A DNA stretch of 64,000 nucleotides from assembly GCA_030651695.1 (NCBI GenBank), contig JAUSCD010000033.1, positions 1 to 64,000 on the forward strand. The letters run 5' to 3'. The position numbers were made by a program, and so were the translations under genes. Below, in pieces: positions 141 through 28,954 of this stretch (positions within the stretch are counted from its first letter, which is position 1; every line of letters starts with the position of its first letter). Source of the stretch: Pseudohongiella sp. GTDB lineage: Bacteria > Pseudomonadota > Gammaproteobacteria > Pseudomonadales > Pseudohongiellaceae. Below the pieces are notes generated by a model. It searched no databases and was not told where the DNA came from. It saw only the letters and a list, made by a program, of their open reading frames with translations.

Positions 141-436
141 CTCTCATGAAGGGCGGGGTGTATGAATTTATAATTTGCCCAATTAATACGCCCATTTTTT
201 ACGTTGGTGCTCGATAAGAAAGGAACGCCTTTACCCTCTGGAACATACAATGGAGTTGCAGCCACACCGCAAGTTATAAGGTTCGTAACTTCGGAAAACC
301 GAGAACATTCCCAATCCTCCGGAATAATGCCAACCTCACTCTGCTTATACCCAGCAGGCGCGACTGGACTAGACTGCCGTAAATCGTAACCGATCGGAGC
401 GTCCCGTACCTCTATCGCTTCACTGCTTACGCCCAT
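119..436 (-). pseudogene. hsdS: hsdS, type I restriction specificity subunit, truncated by an IS
   Basis: The first ~98 residues match the N-terminal part of a type I specificity subunit: the YKQSEVGIIPEDWE segment is the typical start of the first target-recognition domain and is followed by a VPFLSSTNVKNG segment. A full HsdS is about 400 residues. Here the reading frame enters the insertion-sequence end (115-140), gains seven foreign residues (SESLPVL) and stops at 119-121. The start overlaps the end of hsdM by 10 bp, which is normal for hsdMS operons. Without the second recognition domain and the conserved helices, this product should not assemble a sequence-specific methyltransferase, unless the remainder is supplied from beyond the IS. 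Confidence 0.85.
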
Positions 437-2859
437 ACCGCCCCCATCTTTTTCAGGTGCTCATCCACCATAGCGGACAGTTCGGTGACTTCACCCACCA
501 GTTGCGACAGTGGTGTGGCGTAGCGCTCAGCCAGTTCCCGAATGCGAGCTGTTAGAGTTTGTGAAACGCGATCCAGCTCACCCTGCACTTCAGTGGCAAG
601 GGCGGTAAGCCATTTGTCATCCACCACCAAGGTTTTGATTTCATCCACACTAAGCTTGGAATACTGGTCATGAGCCAGTTGGTCGAGTTCAGCATCGGCG
701 GTTTTGATCTGGCTTTTCAGGTCGGCTTGCTGCTGGTCCAGCTTGATCCACTGCTTTAGTATTTTGGCTTCATTGGCGTAATCAGCATCTCCCTTTATCT
801 CCCTCAGGCGCTTGTTGACTTCTCCCTTGTTGATCTTGTCCAGCTCTGCGAATGCACCTTCTTCACCACCTTGCTCTTCTTCCAGCTCTGTCTGTTGGGC
901 TATGGCAGATTCCAGTTCCGCTTGCAGCGCATCCAGCTCGGCTTGTTGTGCGGCAAAGTAGCGCGCGACAATATAGGTCTTCGGAATCAGGTCGCAGGCC
1001 CAGCCTTTATCTTTCAGCTGACCCTTCTTGCTGCCTGCTTTAATTTCTTCCAACACTCGCTGGGGTTTAGCTTCCCAGCCATCCGCCGCAATCAGGTAAG
1101 CATCGTCCTGCAGAACTTCTGCCCAGTAGTCCATCAGATGTTGGTACATATCGTAGGCATCCAGCAGCGGCGCGCTGCGGAACGCATCGAGCAGATTCTC
1201 ACCAACCGTGGTGATCAGTTCCTTTGGCAAACCATCCACGTCAAAGGCTTTCAGGTTCGGCACGTTTGTACTTCGCCATTTATCAAAGCTGCCTGTTACG
1301 GCTGCTTTGAATTGGGCGAATTCCGGATGACTCAGAATGGCTGTTTTGACTTCGGCAATTGGCACACGCAGCTGGCTGTAACCAGCGCGACCGGCTTCCA
1401 CGAACAAGGCAGAACGTACCGCTGGCATGACCTGCCAGTAAGCGCTCAGGGCATTTAGATCGCGATCCGGAATACCGCCGCGCAAGTGACCATCGATGTC
1501 CTGGATGTCCTCTGGCTCAGTGCTGTCGATGTACCGTGGCAGGTTAAGGTTGTGGTCGTTTTTGGTATCAGCAATTTCGTCGAACGGCACCATACGCGCG
1601 TAGCGCGGGACATCTTGCTGTTTGGTGAAGGTGTCGACAATACGGTGGATGTCCTGCTCCCGCAGACGGTTTTTATTGCCATCCTTAATGTAGCCCTTGG
1701 AGGCATCAATCATGAAGATGCCTTTCCTGGCTTGAGCGTTCTCTTTGTCTAACACCACAACACAGGCGGGGATGCCGGTGCCGTAGAACAAGTTTGCGGG
1801 CAGACCAATAATGCCCTTGATGAAACCAGAGCGAACCAACTGTTTACGGATCACGCCTTCAGCATTACCCCTGAACAACACGCCATGAGGCAGAATCACA
1901 GCACCCTTGCCAGTGCTCTTCATGGAACGTATCACGTGCAACAGATAAGCATAGTCACCCTGCTTGGCAGGTGGCACACCCCAACCAAAGCGCTGAAACG
2001 GATCGTTCTCAGGCGTGAGACCTGTACCCCAGCTCTTGTCAGAAAATGGAGGGTTGGCCACCACATAGTCGTAGGTGCGCAGCTGCTCACGATCTTTGAA
2101 CTTGGGATTGGCCAGCGTGTCGCCCTGCTGAATGTTGGCCGTGGGGAAGTTGTGCAGGATCATGTTCATGCGAGCCAGACCTGCCGTTGTCACATCCTTC
2201 TCCTGACCTTCCAGAGTGATGTGCTTGCCTGCCTCAGCCGCAACTTTCAAAAGCAATGATCCTGAGCCGCAGGTAGGGTCATAGGCTGTTGTAGCCGCTA
2301 CTGCAGTCTGGGGTGATATTCCGATCACTTGAGCCATGATACGACTGACCTCAGAAGGGGTATAGAACTGCCCCTTACTCTTGCCGCTTTCGGTAGCGAA
2401 GTGCCGCATCAGGTACTCATAGGCATCACCCAAAATGTCGTCGTGCTCCGCACGATTTTTGGCAAAGTCCAGTTCAGGCTTCTGGAAGATGCTGACCAGA
2501 TTGGTCAGCCGGTCGACCATGGCCTTACCTTCACCCAATTTGTTTGGATCATTGAAGTCAGGGAAGTCACTGCGAGCCAAACGTTGATTGGCTTCAATCA
2601 GAGGCTGAATGATCTGGGTATTGATCTTGTCACCGATATCGCTCTTGCCCTTGAGCAGAACCATATCCTTGAAACTTGAACCAGCAGGAATGACTACTGG
2701 AGGCGCAAAGTCATCAGAGTCAGCATACTTGTCAGAGATGTACTTGATGAACAGCATGAACAGGACGTAGTCCTTGTACTGACTGGCGTCCATACCGCCG
2801 CGAAGTTCGTCACATGATGCCCAGAGGGAGGAGTAGAGTTCGGATTTCTTTATAGCCAT
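427..2859 (-). CDS. hsdM: Type I restriction-modification DNA methyltransferase subunit HsdM
   Basis: An 810-residue N6-adenine methyltransferase subunit of a type I restriction-modification complex (HsdM2-HsdS). Visible features are an N-terminal HsdM helical domain (about 1-150), the GQFYTPSEV segment at 163-171, the AdoMet-binding motif I at D194-PTCGSGS, and the catalytic NPPF at 269-272. The last 200 or so residues are rich in Glu, Gln, Lys and Leu and look like an extended coiled coil, making the protein longer than the classical ~530-residue HsdM and like the long subtype. It is translationally coupled to hsdS (10-bp overlap). Because hsdS is interrupted, the methyltransferase is probably orphaned. 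No hsdR is visible; it could lie beyond the left edge. Confidence 0.93.
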   Translation of the reverse strand: MAIKKSELYSSLWASCDELRGGMDASQYKDYVLFMLFIKYISDKYADSDDFAPPVVIPAGSSFKDMVLLKGKSDIGDKINTQIIQPLIEANQRLARSDFPDFNDPNKLGEGKAMVDRLTNLVSIFQKPELDFAKNRAEHDDILGDAYEYLMRHFATESGKSKGQFYTPSEVSRIMAQVIGISPQTAVAATTAYDPTCGSGSLLLKVAAEAGKHITLEGQEKDVTTAGLARMNMILHNFPTANIQQGDTLANPKFKDREQLRTYDYVVANPPFSDKSWGTGLTPENDPFQRFGWGVPPAKQGDYAYLLHVIRSMKSTGKGAVILPHGVLFRGNAEGVIRKQLVRSGFIKGIIGLPANLFYGTGIPACVVVLDKENAQARKGIFMIDASKGYIKDGNKNRLREQDIHRIVDTFTKQQDVPRYARMVPFDEIADTKNDHNLNLPRYIDSTEPEDIQDIDGHLRGGIPDRDLNALSAYWQVMPAVRSALFVEAGRAGYSQLRVPIAEVKTAILSHPEFAQFKAAVTGSFDKWRSTNVPNLKAFDVDGLPKELITTVGENLLDAFRSAPLLDAYDMYQHLMDYWAEVLQDDAYLIAADGWEAKPQRVLEEIKAGSKKGQLKDKGWACDLIPKTYIVARYFAAQQAELDALQAELESAIAQQTELEEEQGGEEGAFAELDKINKGEVNKRLREIKGDADYANEAKILKQWIKLDQQQADLKSQIKTADAELDQLAHDQYSKLSVDEIKTLVVDDKWLTALATEVQGELDRVSQTLTARIRELAERYATPLSQLVGEVTELSAMVDEHLKKMGAVWA

Positions 2860-4829: not shown

Positions 4830-5033
4830 ATGAAAAACGCCCCCATATACTCTTTTGCCAAGTGGGTCCGTATCACCATGCTGGAAACCATCAACGGTTA
4901 TACAGCTGATGCTGCTCGCGGCAAGATCAAGACTGGCCTCTGGAAAGAAGGTCTGCAGTGGAAGAAAGCACCTGATGGCAACATCATGGTTAACCCCCGA
5001 GCGATAGACGAATGGATTGAGACACATGGATAA
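4830..5033 (+). CDS. Excisionase-like small DNA-binding protein
   Basis: 67 residues starting MKNAPIYSFAKWVRITMLE. The pattern resembles small excisionases: a short winged-helix in which KWVRITMLETINGYTADAA would be the recognition region and LWKEGLQWKKAPDGNIMVN the wing. Family members bend DNA at the attachment site to direct the integrase toward excision. The ATG at 4830 is chosen over an upstream in-frame start at 4758 because AAGAAGGA lies at the right distance and the upstream residues overlap the preceding gene. The gene overlaps the start of the integrase (ATGGATAA), indicating translational coupling. Confidence 0.7.
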   Translation: MKNAPIYSFAKWVRITMLETINGYTADAARGKIKTGLWKEGLQWKKAPDGNIMVNPRAIDEWIETHG

Positions 5034-6279
5034 ATTCCCCAAGGGTGTTGATGCCCCAACCGGTTACCTGCGTATACGGTTCACCTTCAAGGGTGTACGT
5101 TGTGCAGAGATACTGGCGGGCATGAAACCCACCAAAACCAACATTGCGTATGCTGTACATAAACTCTCTGTTATCAAACTGGAGATACGTGAGAACCGGT
5201 TCAACTACACTGAACACTTCCCCAACTCTCCTAAGGCTGGTTGGTTTGGTGGCCCATCTAATGCCAAACGTACTGTGGAAGAAGGTGTTACCAACTGGCT
5301 TAGCGTGAAGAAAGCCACCGTTGCTCCTTCTGGGCATCGCAAGTATGAGAAAGACGCCAATCTCTATGTGATCCCTAAATGGGGCACACGGCTATTCTCC
5401 GACATTACGCGTTCAGAGATTGTCCGTTGGCAGACGCTGGAGCTTCCAGGGCAAGGCCTCTCGAACAAGTCAATCAACTGTCTGATGACAACCTTGCGGG
5501 GGCCGTTTGAAGATGCCCATGCGGACAACGTCATTCAAACCAATCCGATGGATACCATCAAGAACTTGGTACTGGATGCTCAGGGTGATCCGGATCCTCT
5601 GAGCTTGGAGGAACTGGCTCGACTTACCGGCATGCAAACTCACCGAGTACAGGAGATTAATGCTATTGGTTTTAATGCGTGGTCAGGTTTGCGTGAAGGT
5701 GAGTTGATTGCATTGGCTTGGGAGGACATTGACCTAAAGAACTGGACCGTGAAGATCAGCCGTAACCGGGTGAACAATGAATACAAGCTGCCAAAGACCA
5801 AAGCCAGTATCAGAGAGTTTGATCTGTTGCCTGAGGCCATCGAGTTCTTGAAGAAACAGATGGAGCATACCTACATGCTGCCACCCGTTGAGGTGAAGGT
5901 ACGTCAACGGAACAATCGAACCTTCACGAAGGAGAAGGTTAGGTTTGTCTTTCACAGTTCAGTTGCCCACCGACCATGGGCAGGTGATTCATCATTCAGA
6001 ACTGCATGGGCGGGGATACTGGCAAAAGCGAAAGTGCGATACCGAGGACCGAACCAACTCAGACACACATTCATCAGTCAGATGCTGACTCAGTACATCC
6101 CGCCTGAATGGATTGCACCGATGTGTGGAACGAGTGTGGAGATGATCCGGAAGCACTACGGCAAGTTCATCAAGGAAGACCGTCCGAACTTGGGAGCGGC
6201 TATTGCGAAGATCCGACATCAGAATGACCAGAATCGGTCAGATAATGGTCATGTCGGCAAACTCAACTCAGCTAAGTAG
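5026..6279 (+). CDS. Tyrosine-type site-specific integrase (DUF3596 arm-binding)
   Basis: 417 residues (420 if an upstream ATG at 5017 is used). The first ~75 residues match the DUF3596 arm-site binding domain (a GVRCAEIL strand, KPTKTNIAYA, then FNYTEHFPNSPKA), followed by a SAM-like core-binding domain and a catalytic domain. Visible catalytic residues are the Arg in GLREGE, the Lys in KLPKTK, the Arg-His of NQLRHTF and the Tyr in IRKHYGKF. The first His of the usual HxLRH box is Asn here, a variation I associate with this subfamily. The protein integrates and excises the element. Its stop lies 21 bp from the tRNA-Arg 3' end, the expected layout when a tRNA is the attachment site. Confidence 0.93.
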   Translation: MDKFPKGVDAPTGYLRIRFTFKGVRCAEILAGMKPTKTNIAYAVHKLSVIKLEIRENRFNYTEHFPNSPKAGWFGGPSNAKRTVEEGVTNWLSVKKATVAPSGHRKYEKDANLYVIPKWGTRLFSDITRSEIVRWQTLELPGQGLSNKSINCLMTTLRGPFEDAHADNVIQTNPMDTIKNLVLDAQGDPDPLSLEELARLTGMQTHRVQEINAIGFNAWSGLREGELIALAWEDIDLKNWTVKISRNRVNNEYKLPKTKASIREFDLLPEAIEFLKKQMEHTYMLPPVEVKVRQRNNRTFTKEKVRFVFHSSVAHRPWAGDSSFRTAWAGILAKAKVRYRGPNQLRHTFISQMLTQYIPPEWIAPMCGTSVEMIRKHYGKFIKEDRPNLGAAIAKIRHQNDQNRSDNGHVGKLNSAK

Positions 6280-6300
6280 TTGATATTAAAAAACAAAATA

Positions 6301-6377
6301 TGGTGCACCCGGAGAGATTCGAACTCCCGACCAAGTGGTTCGAAGCCACCTACTCTATCCAGCTGAGCTACGGGTGC
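6301..6377 (-). tRNA. tRNA-Arg (anticodon UCG)
   Basis: A complete 77-nt tRNA with encoded CCA. The acceptor arms GCACCCG and CGGGTGC pair perfectly, the D arm is GCTC...GAGT, the anticodon loop is CTTCGAA (anticodon TCG, plus-strand bases 6341-6343), and the T arm is GGGAG-TTCGAAT-CTCTC. It should read CGA codons as arginine. The 3' end faces the integrase, so it is the likely attachment site, with the inserted element restoring the 3' end. It is the only intact copy of what was apparently a three-copy array. Confidence 0.95.
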
Positions 6378-6440
6378 GTAACTGTGATATTTGTTTATTT
6401 AAATCACTGTCATCTCAGTGATCTGCCATCCCCCAACATA

Positions 6441-6585
6441 CGGAGAGATTGATTCGGCATTTGGCTAAGCCAAATGCCTCACCCCTTCGGGGCGGCTTTC
6501 AGCCGTCTAAAACGCTGCGCGTTTTATCGAACTCCCGACCAAGTGGTTCGAAGCCACCTACTCTATCCAGCTGAGCTACGGGTGC
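6441..6585 (-). pseudogene. tRNA-Arg copy interrupted in the T-loop by a 77-nt hairpin element
   Basis: On the minus strand, 6585 down to 6528 reproduces the tRNA-Arg from its first base through TTCG of the T-loop without visible change. Then 77 nt of unrelated sequence (6527-6451) follows, after which AATCTCTCCG (6450-6441), the far side of the T arm, resumes. The remaining acceptor 3' strand and CCA are not recognisable. Unless the 77 nt is removed and the 3' end rebuilt, it cannot become a normal tRNA. It is called a pseudogene, although the perfectly kept anticodon half leaves other roles open. Confidence 0.8.
6451..6527 (-). repeat. 77-nt four-hairpin insert, copy A
   Basis: The insert is almost completely tiled by four dyads. 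In plus coordinates these are 6456-6478 (GGCATTTGGC arms), 6482-6492 (CCCC-TTC-GGGG), 6493-6505 (CGGCT-TTC-AGCCG) and 6509-6525 (AAAACGC-TGC-GCGTTTT). It has no coding capacity. It interrupts the T-loop of a tRNA-Arg copy and is repeated with the same length in the next copy. Confidence 0.85.
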
Positions 6586-6653
6586 GTAACTTTTGGTGTT
6601 TAACTTATTCCGATCACTGCCACCAACAGTGATTTCCCGTCCCGGACCAGTCC

Positions 6654-6774
6654 GGAGAGATTGACTCGGCATTTGGCTAAGCCAAATACCTCACCCCTAC
6701 GGGGCGGCTTTCAGCCGTCTAAAACGCTACGCGTTTTATCGAACTCCCGACCAAGTGGTTCGAAGCCACCTACT
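6654..6774 (-). pseudogene. tRNA-Arg remnant with T-loop insert and lost 5' half
   Basis: On the minus strand the sequence joins the tRNA-Arg at the anticodon arm (GTAGGTGGCTTCGAACC), continues through the variable region and T arm to TTCG, is interrupted by the second copy of the 77-nt insert (6739-6663), and resumes with AATCTCTCC to 6654. The acceptor 5' strand and D arm are missing: similarity ends at about 6774, where the sequence passes straight into a promoter-like region. It is clearly non-functional as a tRNA. Confidence 0.8.
6663..6739 (-). repeat. 77-nt four-hairpin insert, copy B
   Basis: Same length as copy A, differing at four positions. Two differences are in hairpin loops, one is outside the stems, and one turns a C-G pair into a U-G wobble when read as minus-strand RNA. 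All four hairpins are therefore still formable in the tRNA sense of transcription. Confidence 0.85.
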
Positions 6775-6785
6775 TATCAGGGGCG

Positions 6786-6816
6786 CGATTATACACATCA
6801 GTCGAAGCCAGATGCC
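6786..6816 (-). promoter_or_regulatory. Probable promoter of the tRNA-Arg array
   Basis: The minus strand has a perfect TATAAT at 6793-6788 followed by a G+C-rich discriminator CGCGCCC, the arrangement of growth-rate-controlled (stringent) stable-RNA promoters. The -35 region 17 bp upstream is poor. The truncated tRNA copy begins about 15 bp downstream, so this was probably the promoter of the original array and would still drive the intact tRNA about 400 bp away. Confidence 0.55.
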
Positions 6817-6852
6817 ATAGGGAATTTACACCCCATGACATCCGGCCCAAAC

Positions 6853-8460
6853 TCAGTTAATCGTAGCCGAACTCACAATAGCCTGAGCCTGTATCTGCTG
6901 CATATTGGTATTCGCTGGCAGCACCTGACCCGAGTCGTACTGGCTGACCCGGCCAGCCGGTACATTTCTCGCTGTGAACGGAATACGCGTGAGCTGACCG
7001 TTCAGGACGGCGCGCAGCTCCATGGTTACCGTGGCCATCGGCACAGGTGCGCGGTTTGTCACCTGCACAATCACCCGTCCGCTTCGGTCAAGCACGGGAA
7101 CCGCCTGCACGTAGACGGTGGGATTATCAGCAATATCCAGACGCATGAAGTTGGCTTGTGCCTGTGCGCCCATGTCGCCGGGAGCGGCAGCGGCCATCTG
7201 GAAGTACTGTTTGGCGCTGCCTCTGTCGTTGGCGGCCAGAGCCAGCGTGCCGAGTTCATTGGCGGCCAACGCGGTAGGCAGCAGCTTTACGCTGGCTTCC
7301 AGATCGGATTTGGCACGAGCCTGGTTGCCCTGGCGTGAGTACGCCATGCCGCGGCCGAGATAATAGTCAAAGTAGGCATCGTCGCGGGCCATTGCCAGAT
7401 TGTATTGCTCGATGGCGGCACCGTAACGGCGCTGCATCAGGGCAATGTCGCCTTTTAGACCAAGGAAACGGGCTTCACGCGGCATCAGGGCGATGGCCTG
7501 ATCGAGTTTGCTTTCGGCTTCCTCTATTTTGTCTTCGCGCAGCAGCTTGTTGGCTTCGTCAAACAGGTCGTAGGCCGGTTTGTTGGCCATCAGACTGGCG
7601 GTGCGCTGGCGGTAGCGTTGTTCGCCGGCATCACCCGCGGTGAAACCTTCCGAGCGCAGCTGACTGACCAGCTGGCGGTTGTTGTTTACACGCTCTTGTG
7701 AGGGCGGGTGACTTGCGAACAAGCCATCCAACCAGCCGGGTGCGCGGCCTTCGGACAGGCGCACAAAAGTCTGTTGCAGCTCGACCGCGCCTTGTGGGTC
7801 GTAACCGGCCTGCGCCATATAGCGGGTGCCGTAGAGGTCGGATTCACGTTCGGCTTCGCGGCCATAGCGCTGGGAGATCAGCTGTGCGCCCACTTGAGCA
7901 CCACCCACAATGGCGCCAGCGTAAGGGTTGTCGCTGACGGTGGCTGCAACCGCCGTCACTACCAGCGCACCTTGCAATAACATGCCGCGCTCTACGCTCT
8001 GGGCGCCGTGACGGGCGGCTGAGTGAACAACTTCGTGACCCAGTACGGCGGCCAGTTCGGCTTCGGATTTCAGCTCGTACAGCAGGCCGCGGTTGATGGC
8101 GATTTTGCCGCCGGGCAAGGCCCAGGCGTTGGGCACGGAGTTGTTCAGCACCACAAACTCGTACGGCAACTGGCGCGGGCTGTAAGCAGCCACTCGCTGA
8201 CCGACTTCGTTGACGTAGGCGGTAAGCTCGGGATCAACCTTGAGTTGTCCTCCCTGGCTTTGTTGGGAGGGGCCATAATGCTGGCCGCCAATGGATATTT
8301 CTTCAGCCTGAGATATAAAGGCCAACTCGCTGCGTCCGGTCACGGGATTGGCGCTGCAGGTCATCAGCAACCCGCTGATGACGACGACGCTCATCGCCCT
8401 CATACCAACTGCCCTGGGGCTGATTACCTTAACAAGCGGCATTCGGCTCGTCCTGTTCAT
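6853..8460 (-). CDS. M48-family zinc metalloprotease lipoprotein with TPR repeats (BepA-like)
   Basis: 535 residues. The N-terminus carries a hydrophobic stretch ending in LLMTC, a lipobox-like cleavage site. The zinc-protease motif HEVVH lies near residues 141-145, and the third ligand is expected in the REAERESDLYGT segment. The C-terminal half contains tetratricopeptide repeats (around ALMQRRYGAAIEQYNLAMA and the next ~100 residues). Relatives such as BepA act in the periplasm as quality-control proteases for outer-membrane protein assembly. AGGAG lies just upstream of the start. It is transcribed away from the PQQ dehydrogenase gene. Confidence 0.87.
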   Translation of the reverse strand: MNRTSRMPLVKVISPRAVGMRAMSVVVISGLLMTCSANPVTGRSELAFISQAEEISIGGQHYGPSQQSQGGQLKVDPELTAYVNEVGQRVAAYSPRQLPYEFVVLNNSVPNAWALPGGKIAINRGLLYELKSEAELAAVLGHEVVHSAARHGAQSVERGMLLQGALVVTAVAATVSDNPYAGAIVGGAQVGAQLISQRYGREAERESDLYGTRYMAQAGYDPQGAVELQQTFVRLSEGRAPGWLDGLFASHPPSQERVNNNRQLVSQLRSEGFTAGDAGEQRYRQRTASLMANKPAYDLFDEANKLLREDKIEEAESKLDQAIALMPREARFLGLKGDIALMQRRYGAAIEQYNLAMARDDAYFDYYLGRGMAYSRQGNQARAKSDLEASVKLLPTALAANELGTLALAANDRGSAKQYFQMAAAAPGDMGAQAQANFMRLDIADNPTVYVQAVPVLDRSGRVIVQVTNRAPVPMATVTMELRAVLNGQLTRIPFTARNVPAGRVSQYDSGQVLPANTNMQQIQAQAIVSSATIN

Positions 8461-28021: not shown

Positions 28022-28954
28022 ATGGCAGATGCGGTACTGACGATCAAGGATCTGACAAAACGTTATGGCGATGTTGAGGTTTTGCAAAAACTCAATCTTG
28101 TAGTGACACGCGGCGCCATTCATGGACTTGTCGGCCTGAATGGTTCCGGCAAAACGACTACCATGGAATGCCTGCTGGGTATGCAGGGGTTCAGCAGCGG
28201 AGACATCTCAGTGATGGGACGTCATCCGCGGGATCTGTGGCAGGGCCAGGGTGATGTGGTTGGAATATTTGATACACCCGGTTTGCATCCCGGCCTGACG
28301 GTTCGCCAGTGCCTTGAGCATGCCCGTCTGTTATGCGGCAATCCGGTACGCACGCCCGAACAAGTGGAAAACCTGCTCGGCATCGGCAAGTACTCAGGTT
28401 ATAAAATCCGACAACTGTCACTAGGCAACCGGCGACGTGCATCCATTGCCCACGCCCTGATCGGGCAGCCTGCGTTTGTAGTGCTGGACGAGCCGTTTAA
28501 TGGTCTGGACGCCGGCGGCGTTGATGATGTGCTGGCTTTGATTCAGAAGCTGAACCGCGAAGAAGGCACCAGTTTTCTGTTGTCCAGTCACCAACTGGCT
28601 TACCTGGAAAACATCTGCACACATCTGTCGATCCTGCATCAGGGCAAAATTGCACTAAGCGCATCCACCTACGAACTGATCAGCCCCACCGAATCGCGGC
28701 TGAGAGTCGTATGCAATCACCCGGAAGCGGCTTATCAAATATTGAAACAGACTGTCGGTGTAATAAAGATGGAACGCAGCGGACCAGCCTTTCTGCTGAA
28801 GCTCGACGGCGTGGGCCCGGCAGATATCAACCACAAGCTGGTGATGGCGGGTCTGATGGTGTCCGAGTTACAACCGGAACGTCGTGATCTTGCAGCCCTG
28901 TTCCAGGATATTGTGAATTCGACCCACAAAGTCAAAAAGCAGGAGGCCGCATGA
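28022..28954 (+). CDS. ABC transporter ATP-binding protein
   Basis: 310 residues. The Walker A GLNGSGKTTT, signature LSLGNRRRASIA (LSLGN instead of LSGGQ, as in many ABC-2 type exporters) and Walker B FVVLDEPFNGLD are all present, followed by an H-loop in LLSSHQL. The C-terminal ~80 residues form the regulatory extension common in bacitracin/gliding-type ATPases. It overlaps its permease by 4 bp. Cargo unknown; relatives drive lipid, peptide or antibiotic export. Confidence 0.92.
   Translation: MADAVLTIKDLTKRYGDVEVLQKLNLVVTRGAIHGLVGLNGSGKTTTMECLLGMQGFSSGDISVMGRHPRDLWQGQGDVVGIFDTPGLHPGLTVRQCLEHARLLCGNPVRTPEQVENLLGIGKYSGYKIRQLSLGNRRRASIAHALIGQPAFVVLDEPFNGLDAGGVDDVLALIQKLNREEGTSFLLSSHQLAYLENICTHLSILHQGKIALSASTYELISPTESRLRVVCNHPEAAYQILKQTVGVIKMERSGPAFLLKLDGVGPADINHKLVMAGLMVSELQPERRDLAALFQDIVNSTHKVKKQEAA

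Follow-up and report, generated by a model that had tools for sequence, protein, structure and literature searches.

The described elements closest to the sequence reported here are the RtT repeats (Rfam RF00391; the E. coli tyrT repeats, or rttR) and AaHKsRNA22 (RF02902), a small RNA of Aggregatibacter. An RtT unit consists of an inverted T-arm copy, GTTCGA, hairpins that include CCCGAAGGG, TGAG or CGAA, a last hairpin, GA(A/G)T and a tRNA 3' end, lies on the strand of its tRNA and is repeated in tandem, features that recur in the family described below, with little of the tRNA 3' end kept in the two copies reported here. Passages in the literature relate rtT to the enterobacterial BIME repeats (PMC2965389) and place rttR among the small RNAs that hold a REP (PMC12306157), with both leading back to Bosl and Kersten 1991. 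With respect to expression and function, a passage of Rossi et al. (PMC4986893) reports that, in Actinobacillus pleuropneumoniae, Northern blotting gave signals for RtT relatives located upstream of genes for tRNA-Asn and tRNA-Lys, and the RttR row in a table of an E. coli screen (PMC4606813), which gives 97 +/- 9% and dashes, suggests that RttR was without effect in that screen. Another comparison is offered by the GTAG and CGTC REP repeats, the latter with stems of 8-9 bp and loops of 4-5 according to a passage of PMC3733652; compared with the repeats in that passage, the module described here also has short palindromes, and its hairpin 3 is bordered by a GACG/CGTC tetranucleotide, but it comprises several hairpins in a fixed order, mostly with 3-nt loops, and is linked to tRNA genes. 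Among the matches listed in a search of open-licence PMC papers, we found no T-loop insertion, no T-loop-fused form and no wide distribution of RtT.

Here, we analysed a 64,000-nucleotide stretch of a Pseudohongiella sp. contig (JAUSCD010000033.1, positions 1 to 64,000; the window, hereafter), in which an intact tRNA-Arg(UCG) gene stands behind two modules of this kind, each fused at the T-loop to the 5' part of a further tRNA-Arg copy (Table 1). This finding is real and goes beyond a local oddity; it is of a known kind, namely a tRNA-linked module resembling RtT, which here is fused at the T-loop. Read along the minus strand, the locus shows TATAAT-CGCGCCCC (6793-6780), a split tRNA-Arg fragment (tRNA positions 19-59), a spacer, a split tRNA-Arg copy (1-59), another spacer and the intact tRNA-Arg(UCG) (6377-6301), beyond which comes an integrase gene on the opposite strand, 3' end first. 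In the tRNA sense, the split region of each copy starts with GGGAG-TTCGA and continues with hairpin 4 (TAAAACGC GCA or GTA GCGTTTTA), GA, hairpin 3 (CGGCT GAA AGCCG), hairpin 2 (CCCC GAA or GTA GGGG), TGAG, hairpin 1 with its TTA loop, CGA(A/G)TCA and ATCTCTCC. The two copies lie in direct repeats of 122 nt (6441-6562 and 6653-6774), and because these are 97% identical, one event is probably behind both. The preliminary description of this DNA had reported two tRNA-Arg copies, next to the intact gene, that are split in the T-loop by an insert; the common split point, the 77 nt of each insert (bounds set against the intact tRNA-Arg, with the TTCG/AATC cut point ambiguous by one base) and the four hairpins all stand, but copy 2 keeps tRNA positions 19-59 only, and the 3' tRNA part of both copies amounts to about AATCTCTCC(GG) (CTCTCC(GG)), with the acceptor strand and CCA missing. 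Because of this missing end, both split copies look like pseudogenes rather than whole tRNAs with an insert.

Table 1. Features of the tRNA-Arg(UCG) locus, in window positions.
Feature	Positions	Strand	Basis
Tyrosine integrase of the island at the 3' end of the intact tRNA	5017-6279	+	Pfam Arm-DNA-bind_2 and Phage_integrase
Intact tRNA-Arg, anticodon TCG	6301-6377	-	ARAGORN; Rfam tRNA 65.3 bits
Copy 1, RtT-like four-hairpin module (GTTCGA ... GAATCAATC)	6447-6532	-	R1 E 4.0e-23; R2 E 1.4e-26; AaHKsRNA22 36.3 bits at 6445-6536
Net 77-nt insert, copy 1, between TTCG and AATC of the T-loop	6451-6527		sequence
Hairpin 1, copy 1, loop TTA	6456-6478	-	same stem in R2
Hairpin 2, copy 1, CCCC GAA GGGG	6482-6492	-	hairpin parse
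Hairpin 3, copy 1, loop GAA	6493-6505	-	hairpin parse
Hairpin 4, copy 1, loop GCA	6508-6526	-	hairpin parse
tRNA-Arg positions 1-59 in copy 1	6527-6585	-	100% over 59 nt vs. intact gene
Copy 2, RtT-like four-hairpin module	6659-6744	-	R1 E 2.8e-21; R2; AaHKsRNA22 38.0 bits at 6651-6748
Net 77-nt insert, copy 2	6663-6739		sequence
Hairpin 1, copy 2	6668-6690	-	hairpin parse
Hairpin 2, copy 2, loop GTA	6694-6704	-	hairpin parse
Hairpin 3, copy 2	6705-6717	-	hairpin parse
Hairpin 4, copy 2, loop GTA	6720-6738	-	hairpin parse
tRNA-Arg positions 19-59 in copy 2, 5' part missing	6739-6778	-	98%
TATAAT with CGCGCCCC after it; likely tRNA transcript promoter, preceding both copies	6788-6793	-	conservation

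The inserts had also been described as not an obvious intron, and our results agree, with no Rfam intron family matched; a group I intron was rejected, the window showing the tRNA alone at the Rfam gathering score and no intron appearing up to E 10 in 6100-7100. A phage or plasmid origin was rejected as well, given that the insert has no match to phages and that the plasmid matches fall on query positions 126-195, i.e., on the tRNA part and not on the insert. A RAYT transposase as the mover was the third candidate to be discarded, one such gene of the host (locus L168) having other palindromes around it, and a pattern scan of 12 stretches around Y1_Tnp genes revealed no four-hairpin module, only two isolated matches resembling hairpin 2. 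The palindromes around this RAYT-like host Y1 transposase gene (800-2579 of L168), GGGGACGGAGGAG/CTCCTCCGTCCCC, constitute a separate REP-like family.

For the module itself, we built a covariance model (R1) from 12 sequences aligned with MAFFT, with the structure set by hand, after removing six of the 18 rows of the first alignment in which the last hairpin or the core was out of register; the window copy was among those removed and was regained by the R1 search. In this alignment of 12 sequences, 15 of the 25 pairs changed on both sides, and 96.8% of the cells were paired vs. 74.6% in shuffles and 32-44% when the structure was slid, a share that is partly built in because the seeds had been chosen by a parser that requires stems. 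In a control set picked by hairpin 2 and GAATCA only, with the stems disregarded, five or more perfect pairs were found for hairpin 1 in 53 of 113 distinct stretches (3.8% in shuffles), for hairpin 3 in 94 of 130 (12.0%) and for hairpin 4 in 123 of 134 (43.5%). A chance origin of the hairpins is unlikely because perfect stems exceed those of shuffles in the control set and because the pairs covary. The covariation itself is compatible with both an RNA and a DNA reading. The ratio of G-T to A-C changes in the stems, which served as a test for RNA on the tRNA strand, was 28 vs. 16 (p 0.10) in the set picked by hairpin 2 and GAATCA only, a weak lean to RNA on that strand, and 41 vs. 13 in sets picked by RNA-type rules; an initial count was set aside as biased by the parser. 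Among 107 parsed elements, GNA loops were present in hairpin 3 of 57, in hairpin 4 of 29 and in hairpin 1 of about 19, while those of hairpin 2 are mostly fixed by the search pattern. When folded as RNA, 158 nt around copy 1 gave a z of -2.88 (1 of 200 shuffles was as good) and a 491-nt stretch a z of -5.46, with the two copies partly paired with each other in the latter fold, which counts against an RtT-like RNA reading.

The window module is probably homologous to RtT, or at least built alike, and we call it RtT-like rather than a member because it falls short of the Rfam gathering score: the RtT model (gathering score 45 bits) gave no match up to E 10 in 6100-7100, and its best match in the window's genome, a copy at Ser(GCT), reached 40.8 bits (E 2.7e-6), below that threshold, followed by three further weak matches there (E 0.019 to 0.1). 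In the opposite direction, R1 did not reach the E. coli tyrT repeats at E 0.01. A second model, R2, built from 115 matches with E. coli excluded (its alignment includes the copy 1 and copy 2 sequences, while copy 1 is absent from the 12 seeds of R1), matches all four tyrT repeats over all 84 positions, albeit weakly (E 1e-4, 0.0018, 0.0045 and 0.014), and the weakest of them is outscored by a match in 101 kb (E 0.0095, window position 28483) that lies in an open reading frame reading like an ABC transporter ATPase and was taken as chance. The insert has no blastn match in E. coli genomes. However, the four tyrT repeats, which Rfam calls RtT, each show the same order of parts by eye. The kinship to the E. 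coli repeats is one of structure and layout. The window copies differ from RtT in that a tRNA 5' part replaces the inverted arm, in that they stand before an intact tRNA and lack the CCA end, and in being invisible to the Rfam model. Both of them also align end to end with the 101-position model of AaHKsRNA22, at 38.0 and 36.3 bits (E 2.9e-5 and 7.1e-5), which misses the gathering score of 39.8 by 1.8 and 3.5 bits. The ERIC sequence, we assume, shares with the module the GGGGTGAG motif after a hairpin.

Relatives of the module are numerous, and many of them are found at tRNA genes. The search of related genomes that the preliminary description had proposed returned relatives of the insert in 25 of 95 genomes by blastn, own genome included. 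With R1 at E 0.01 or better, we found at least 96 matches (91 distinct in sequence) in all 15 genomes of the genus, 2-11 in each, these counts being lower bounds since the best 150 first-look candidates per genome were scored (the best 24 in the class-wide draw), and being counts of elements, with tandem and orthologous copies included, rather than of independent events. Of these 96, 62 lie within 400 bp of a tRNA called by ARAGORN, all 62 on the strand of the tRNA, 55 after it and 7 before it, and in one of the latter (G001:C12:315155) the tRNA call overlaps the element, i.e., the split copy itself was called. The tRNA types involved are Arg (TCG, CCT, ACG and TCT), Ser (GGA, TGA and GCT) and Phe (GAA). 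The 34 copies away from a tRNA call include 10 near a cut or contig end, some that stand behind tRNA fragments and members of a subfamily whose arms differ. In the window's own genome, R2 found 11 copies, ten of which share a 3-kb stretch with a tRNA call, the remaining one standing behind a tRNA-Ser-like 3' fragment by eye.

Beyond the genus, at least 51 of the 185 genomes of the class-wide draw were matched by R1, own genome included. The best matches of the 29 highest-scoring among the 50 other genomes with matches were near a tRNA in 26 cases, all 26 on the same strand and 25 after the tRNA. Likewise, 21 of 30 loci from the insert searches have a tRNA call, and many of the rest look, by eye, like tRNA fragments. 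Hence, the insert is not a dispersed repeat devoid of tRNA preference, the finding that the preliminary description had named as speaking against its account, although dispersed copies do exist. A pattern scan for hairpin 2 and GAATCA in bacterial genomes returned at least 119 stretches, from Gammaproteobacteria, Verrucomicrobia, Holophagaceae, desulfovibrios and others; 61 of 139 pattern elements lie within 400 bp of a tRNA (55 on the same strand, 6 on the opposite one), compared with 168 of 2380 random positions of the same loci, a control that is biased upward. About half of this wider set is away from tRNAs. One genome (G215) has five dispersed copies whose 83-nt cores are identical; four belong to a repeat of ~300 nt, and the stretches fetched contain no tRNA call. 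Because of these copies, the module can be said to spread in settings other than tRNAs. A scan of IMG/VR gave seven stretches, three with one common arrangement and another two with a second, and no tRNA call was made within 1.5 kb of any of the seven. In two loci of another genome (L335 and L337), the module lies, by eye, within an apparently duplicated protein-coding stretch.

The usual form of the element, which we term class A, stands mostly about 70-90 nt after its tRNA. It starts with an inverted T-arm copy with an altered T-loop (GGGCAGGGATGnGAACCC at Ser(TGA)), continues with a short sense T-arm start that ends in GTTCGA and with the four hairpins, and closes with a CGAATCA-like sequence and the sense 3' strand of the T-stem and acceptor, reaching CCA in some copies. 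The arms follow the local tRNA: in 55 of the 62 tRNA-linked copies of the genus, the best fit of the right arm is to its own tRNA rather than to any other type (mean 11.8 vs. 5.4 nt), and for the left arm this holds in 24 of 55 (41 of 55 with ties). The sequence that a copy has in common with its own tRNA at the junction is 6-10 nt long in 48 of 55 cases and 1-4 nt in the remaining seven. Pairing between the left and right arms by tRNA type was matched by 1 of 20,000 permutations (54 of the 55 copies, one having an N), a signal driven mainly by the Ser types and less strong for Arg TCT and Phe. For Arg ACG, CCT and TCG, the last being the type of the window, outer-arm pairing is absent or weak, which goes against an RtT-like RNA reading. 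We infer from the arms that a class A RNA would form a T-stem/acceptor-like helix with the hairpin domain in place of the T-loop, a tRNA 3'-end mimic, most clearly in the Ser types. In this genus, class A stands behind a terminator-like hairpin by eye, and for this reason its transcription may be rare.

The split-tRNA form seen in the window (class B) is the minority. From 235 elements, the 47 without a TTCGA-like anchor were removed, and the 34 nt before the junction of the remaining 188 were compared with 128 tRNA 5' parts, giving a bimodal distribution with 169 elements at 24 matches or fewer (14 of these are unscored, their left side being too short) and 19 at 28 or more. Of the 19 class B elements, seven belong to six genomes of the genus, and the pattern scan contributed the other twelve, from eight loci of which two are labelled Pseudohongiella; the best tRNA matches of the 19 are of eight types (Arg TCG, ACG, CCT and CCG; Ser CGA, GGA, TGA and GCT). 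The constancy of their junction is partly built in, since the TTCGA-like anchor was demanded by the search. The tie of the insert to the T-loop, as initially described, is borne out. Judging from the repeats at the junction, class B could have arisen by deletion between the short GTTCGA repeats in tandem units, with no new insertion, and the outcome of a direct insertion into the T-loop would look no different. The proposal of the preliminary description that the insert is a tiny non-autonomous element targeting the T-loop is compatible with the occurrence of the split form at several tRNA types, but the deletion between GTTCGA repeats would account for this picture equally.

Comparison of the tRNA-Arg(TCG) locus across species puts the class B copies in the position expected of a transcript leader. 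The string GTGTATAATCG occurs upstream of this tRNA in 7 of the 15 genomes of the genus, beside apparently the same peptidase gene by eye, and GC-rich discriminators are typical of stable RNA promoters. Since the site is conserved and its discriminator is GC-rich, TATAAT-CGCGCCCC is likely the promoter of the tRNA transcript; a consensus scan for promoters and terminators found no sigma-70 site and no terminator. The distance from the TATAAT site to the intact tRNA is 51 nt in G004 (no class B), 105 in G006 (a remnant of the anticodon arm), 106 in G011 (no clear remnant), 213 in G001 (one decayed copy), 292 in G002 (a copy and a remnant) and 419 in the window (two copies), and in a seventh genome, G005, the contig ends between the GTGTATAATCG site and the tRNA. 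In these six genomes, the distance broadly follows the class B copies or remnants that are present. Both window copies are probably transcribed as the leader of the intact tRNA, because they lie between the conserved TATAAT-CGCGCCCC site and the latter.

On the other side of the tRNA, G001, G002, G004, G009 and G011 have a terminator-like hairpin and a class A copy, which is absent in G006 and in the window, where the integrase gene is found instead. Judging from this comparison of loci, relatives have at this place a class A copy that the integrase island has probably displaced in the window. The region beyond the 3' end of the tRNA also carries a gene for a type I restriction methylase (HsdM; 427-2859, minus strand), which probably forms one island with the tyrosine integrase gene (5017-6279). 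In G003, G010, G008 and G012, a tRNA fragment, a terminator-like hairpin and a class A-like copy are found elsewhere, as expected of the far end of an island. The tRNA fragments in these relatives begin at about tRNA position 21-29, and the far end of the window's island is outside the contig.

Based on sequence comparison, we consider it probable that the module is an RtT-like RNA domain of tRNA transcripts and that its split form came about by deletion between two GTTCGA repeats. The guess of an RNA domain added to a tRNA-like transcript would thereby be the best-fitting of the three offered by the preliminary description. Specifically, the module would be a domain of four hairpins associated with tRNA genes and delimited by T-arm pieces of its own tRNA; tandem repetition of tRNA-Arg(UCG) in the window, followed by a deletion that reaches from the GTTCGA of a tRNA to the GTTCGA of the following class A copy, would fuse the tRNA 5' part to the hairpins, resulting in class B. 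The class B copies would then be transcribed as the leader of the intact tRNA and cut away during tRNA processing, and the RNA thus released may have a regulatory role. A broader proposal, which we advance tentatively and regard as rather doubtful, is that these modules are class-wide tRNA 3'-end mimics, in which the helix would be copied from each host tRNA and the T-loop replaced by the four-hairpin domain, and which would be co-transcribed with, and released from, tRNA transcripts. Our confidence in both proposals is slightly lowered because the outer arms of the window's type pair poorly and because one tyrT repeat scores below a chance match. Alternatively, it is possible, though less likely than the RNA reading, that the module is selfish DNA, a palindromic repeat of the REP or ERIC kind, which would fold when single-stranded, settle preferentially at tRNA T-arms and be moved in trans by a recombinase or transposase. 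The dispersed copies with identical cores and the CGAATCA that sets tandem units apart are in line with such a repeat, as are the weakness of the G-T excess and the GNA loops in hairpin 3 of 57 of the 107 parsed elements, which could suit single-stranded DNA, GNA triplet loops being unusually stable in DNA mini-hairpins. On the other hand, the nearly fixed strand and order at tRNAs (62 of 62 and 55 of 62) and the match of the arms to the local tRNA suggest evolution in place, a different palindrome surrounds the host Y1 transposase gene in L168 (one of two host copies, the other being on C17), and no target duplication is evident by eye. Passages that count rttR among REP-holding RNAs (PMC12306157) and relate rtT to BIME (PMC2965389) also fit a mobile DNA repeat.

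The module could, in principle, also be mere debris, that is, pseudo-tRNA copies kept by tandem duplication alone and functionless as RNA or DNA, and the variation of class B copies between species and their decay in G001, G006 and G011 are what such an origin would produce; nonetheless, covariation in the module and its recurrence, throughout the class, behind the same small set of tRNA gene types render this quite improbable. Least probable of all in our judgment is that the repeats are remnants of the attachment sites of integrative elements, with the hairpins as a folded att site and the repeats as old attR ends. Right arms that repeat tRNA 3' ends, an integrase at the same tRNA in the window and the displaced tRNA fragments followed by class A-like copies in four relatives could all be read in this way, but these fragments do not start at the T-loop, an inverted left arm is unexpected of an att site, and the E. 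coli tyrT stretch (1.7 kb fetched) contains no integrase. The related suggestion that the inserts are the scar of repeated integrase action is not supported, for the latter reason and because the window's integrase lies on the other side of the tRNA.

If the mimic proposal is true, the modules would act, in step with the supply of tRNA, on enzymes and factors that recognise the helix, be it RNase P, RNase Z, the CCA enzyme or EF-Tu, and the mimic family would include the E. coli tyrT repeats. With similar modules standing in Gammaproteobacteria behind tRNA genes for Ser, Arg, Phe and a handful of others, the oddity of E. coli tyrT becomes a comparative problem, and arms that track the local tRNA make function testable by comparison and by deletion of a defined element. 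Annotators, for their part, may meet tRNA copies that look like carriers of a T-loop intron.

Finally, a few loci of the wider set have features of their own. A scan of the fetched loci for the HUH motif gave one plausible neighbour, in L062, a Verrucomicrobiales contig, where the hairpin module (near 7191-7293) adjoins an open reading frame whose HUH motif (CNHIHILLE) is of the kind seen in Y1 transposases. In the enterobacterium Intestinirhabdus alba (L105, L132, L158 and L160), copies lie in longer stretches, several with TACCCTAAATAATTCG-like ends, which we take to resemble known enterobacterial repeats. In G102, tandem units stand behind tRNA-Ser(GGA) and tRNA-Arg(CCG) (L338 and L339), each consisting of a terminator-like hairpin, an inverted T-arm, the hairpins and a tRNA 3' end, and the matches are spaced 169-180 nt apart, near the 178 bp of E. 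coli tyrT.
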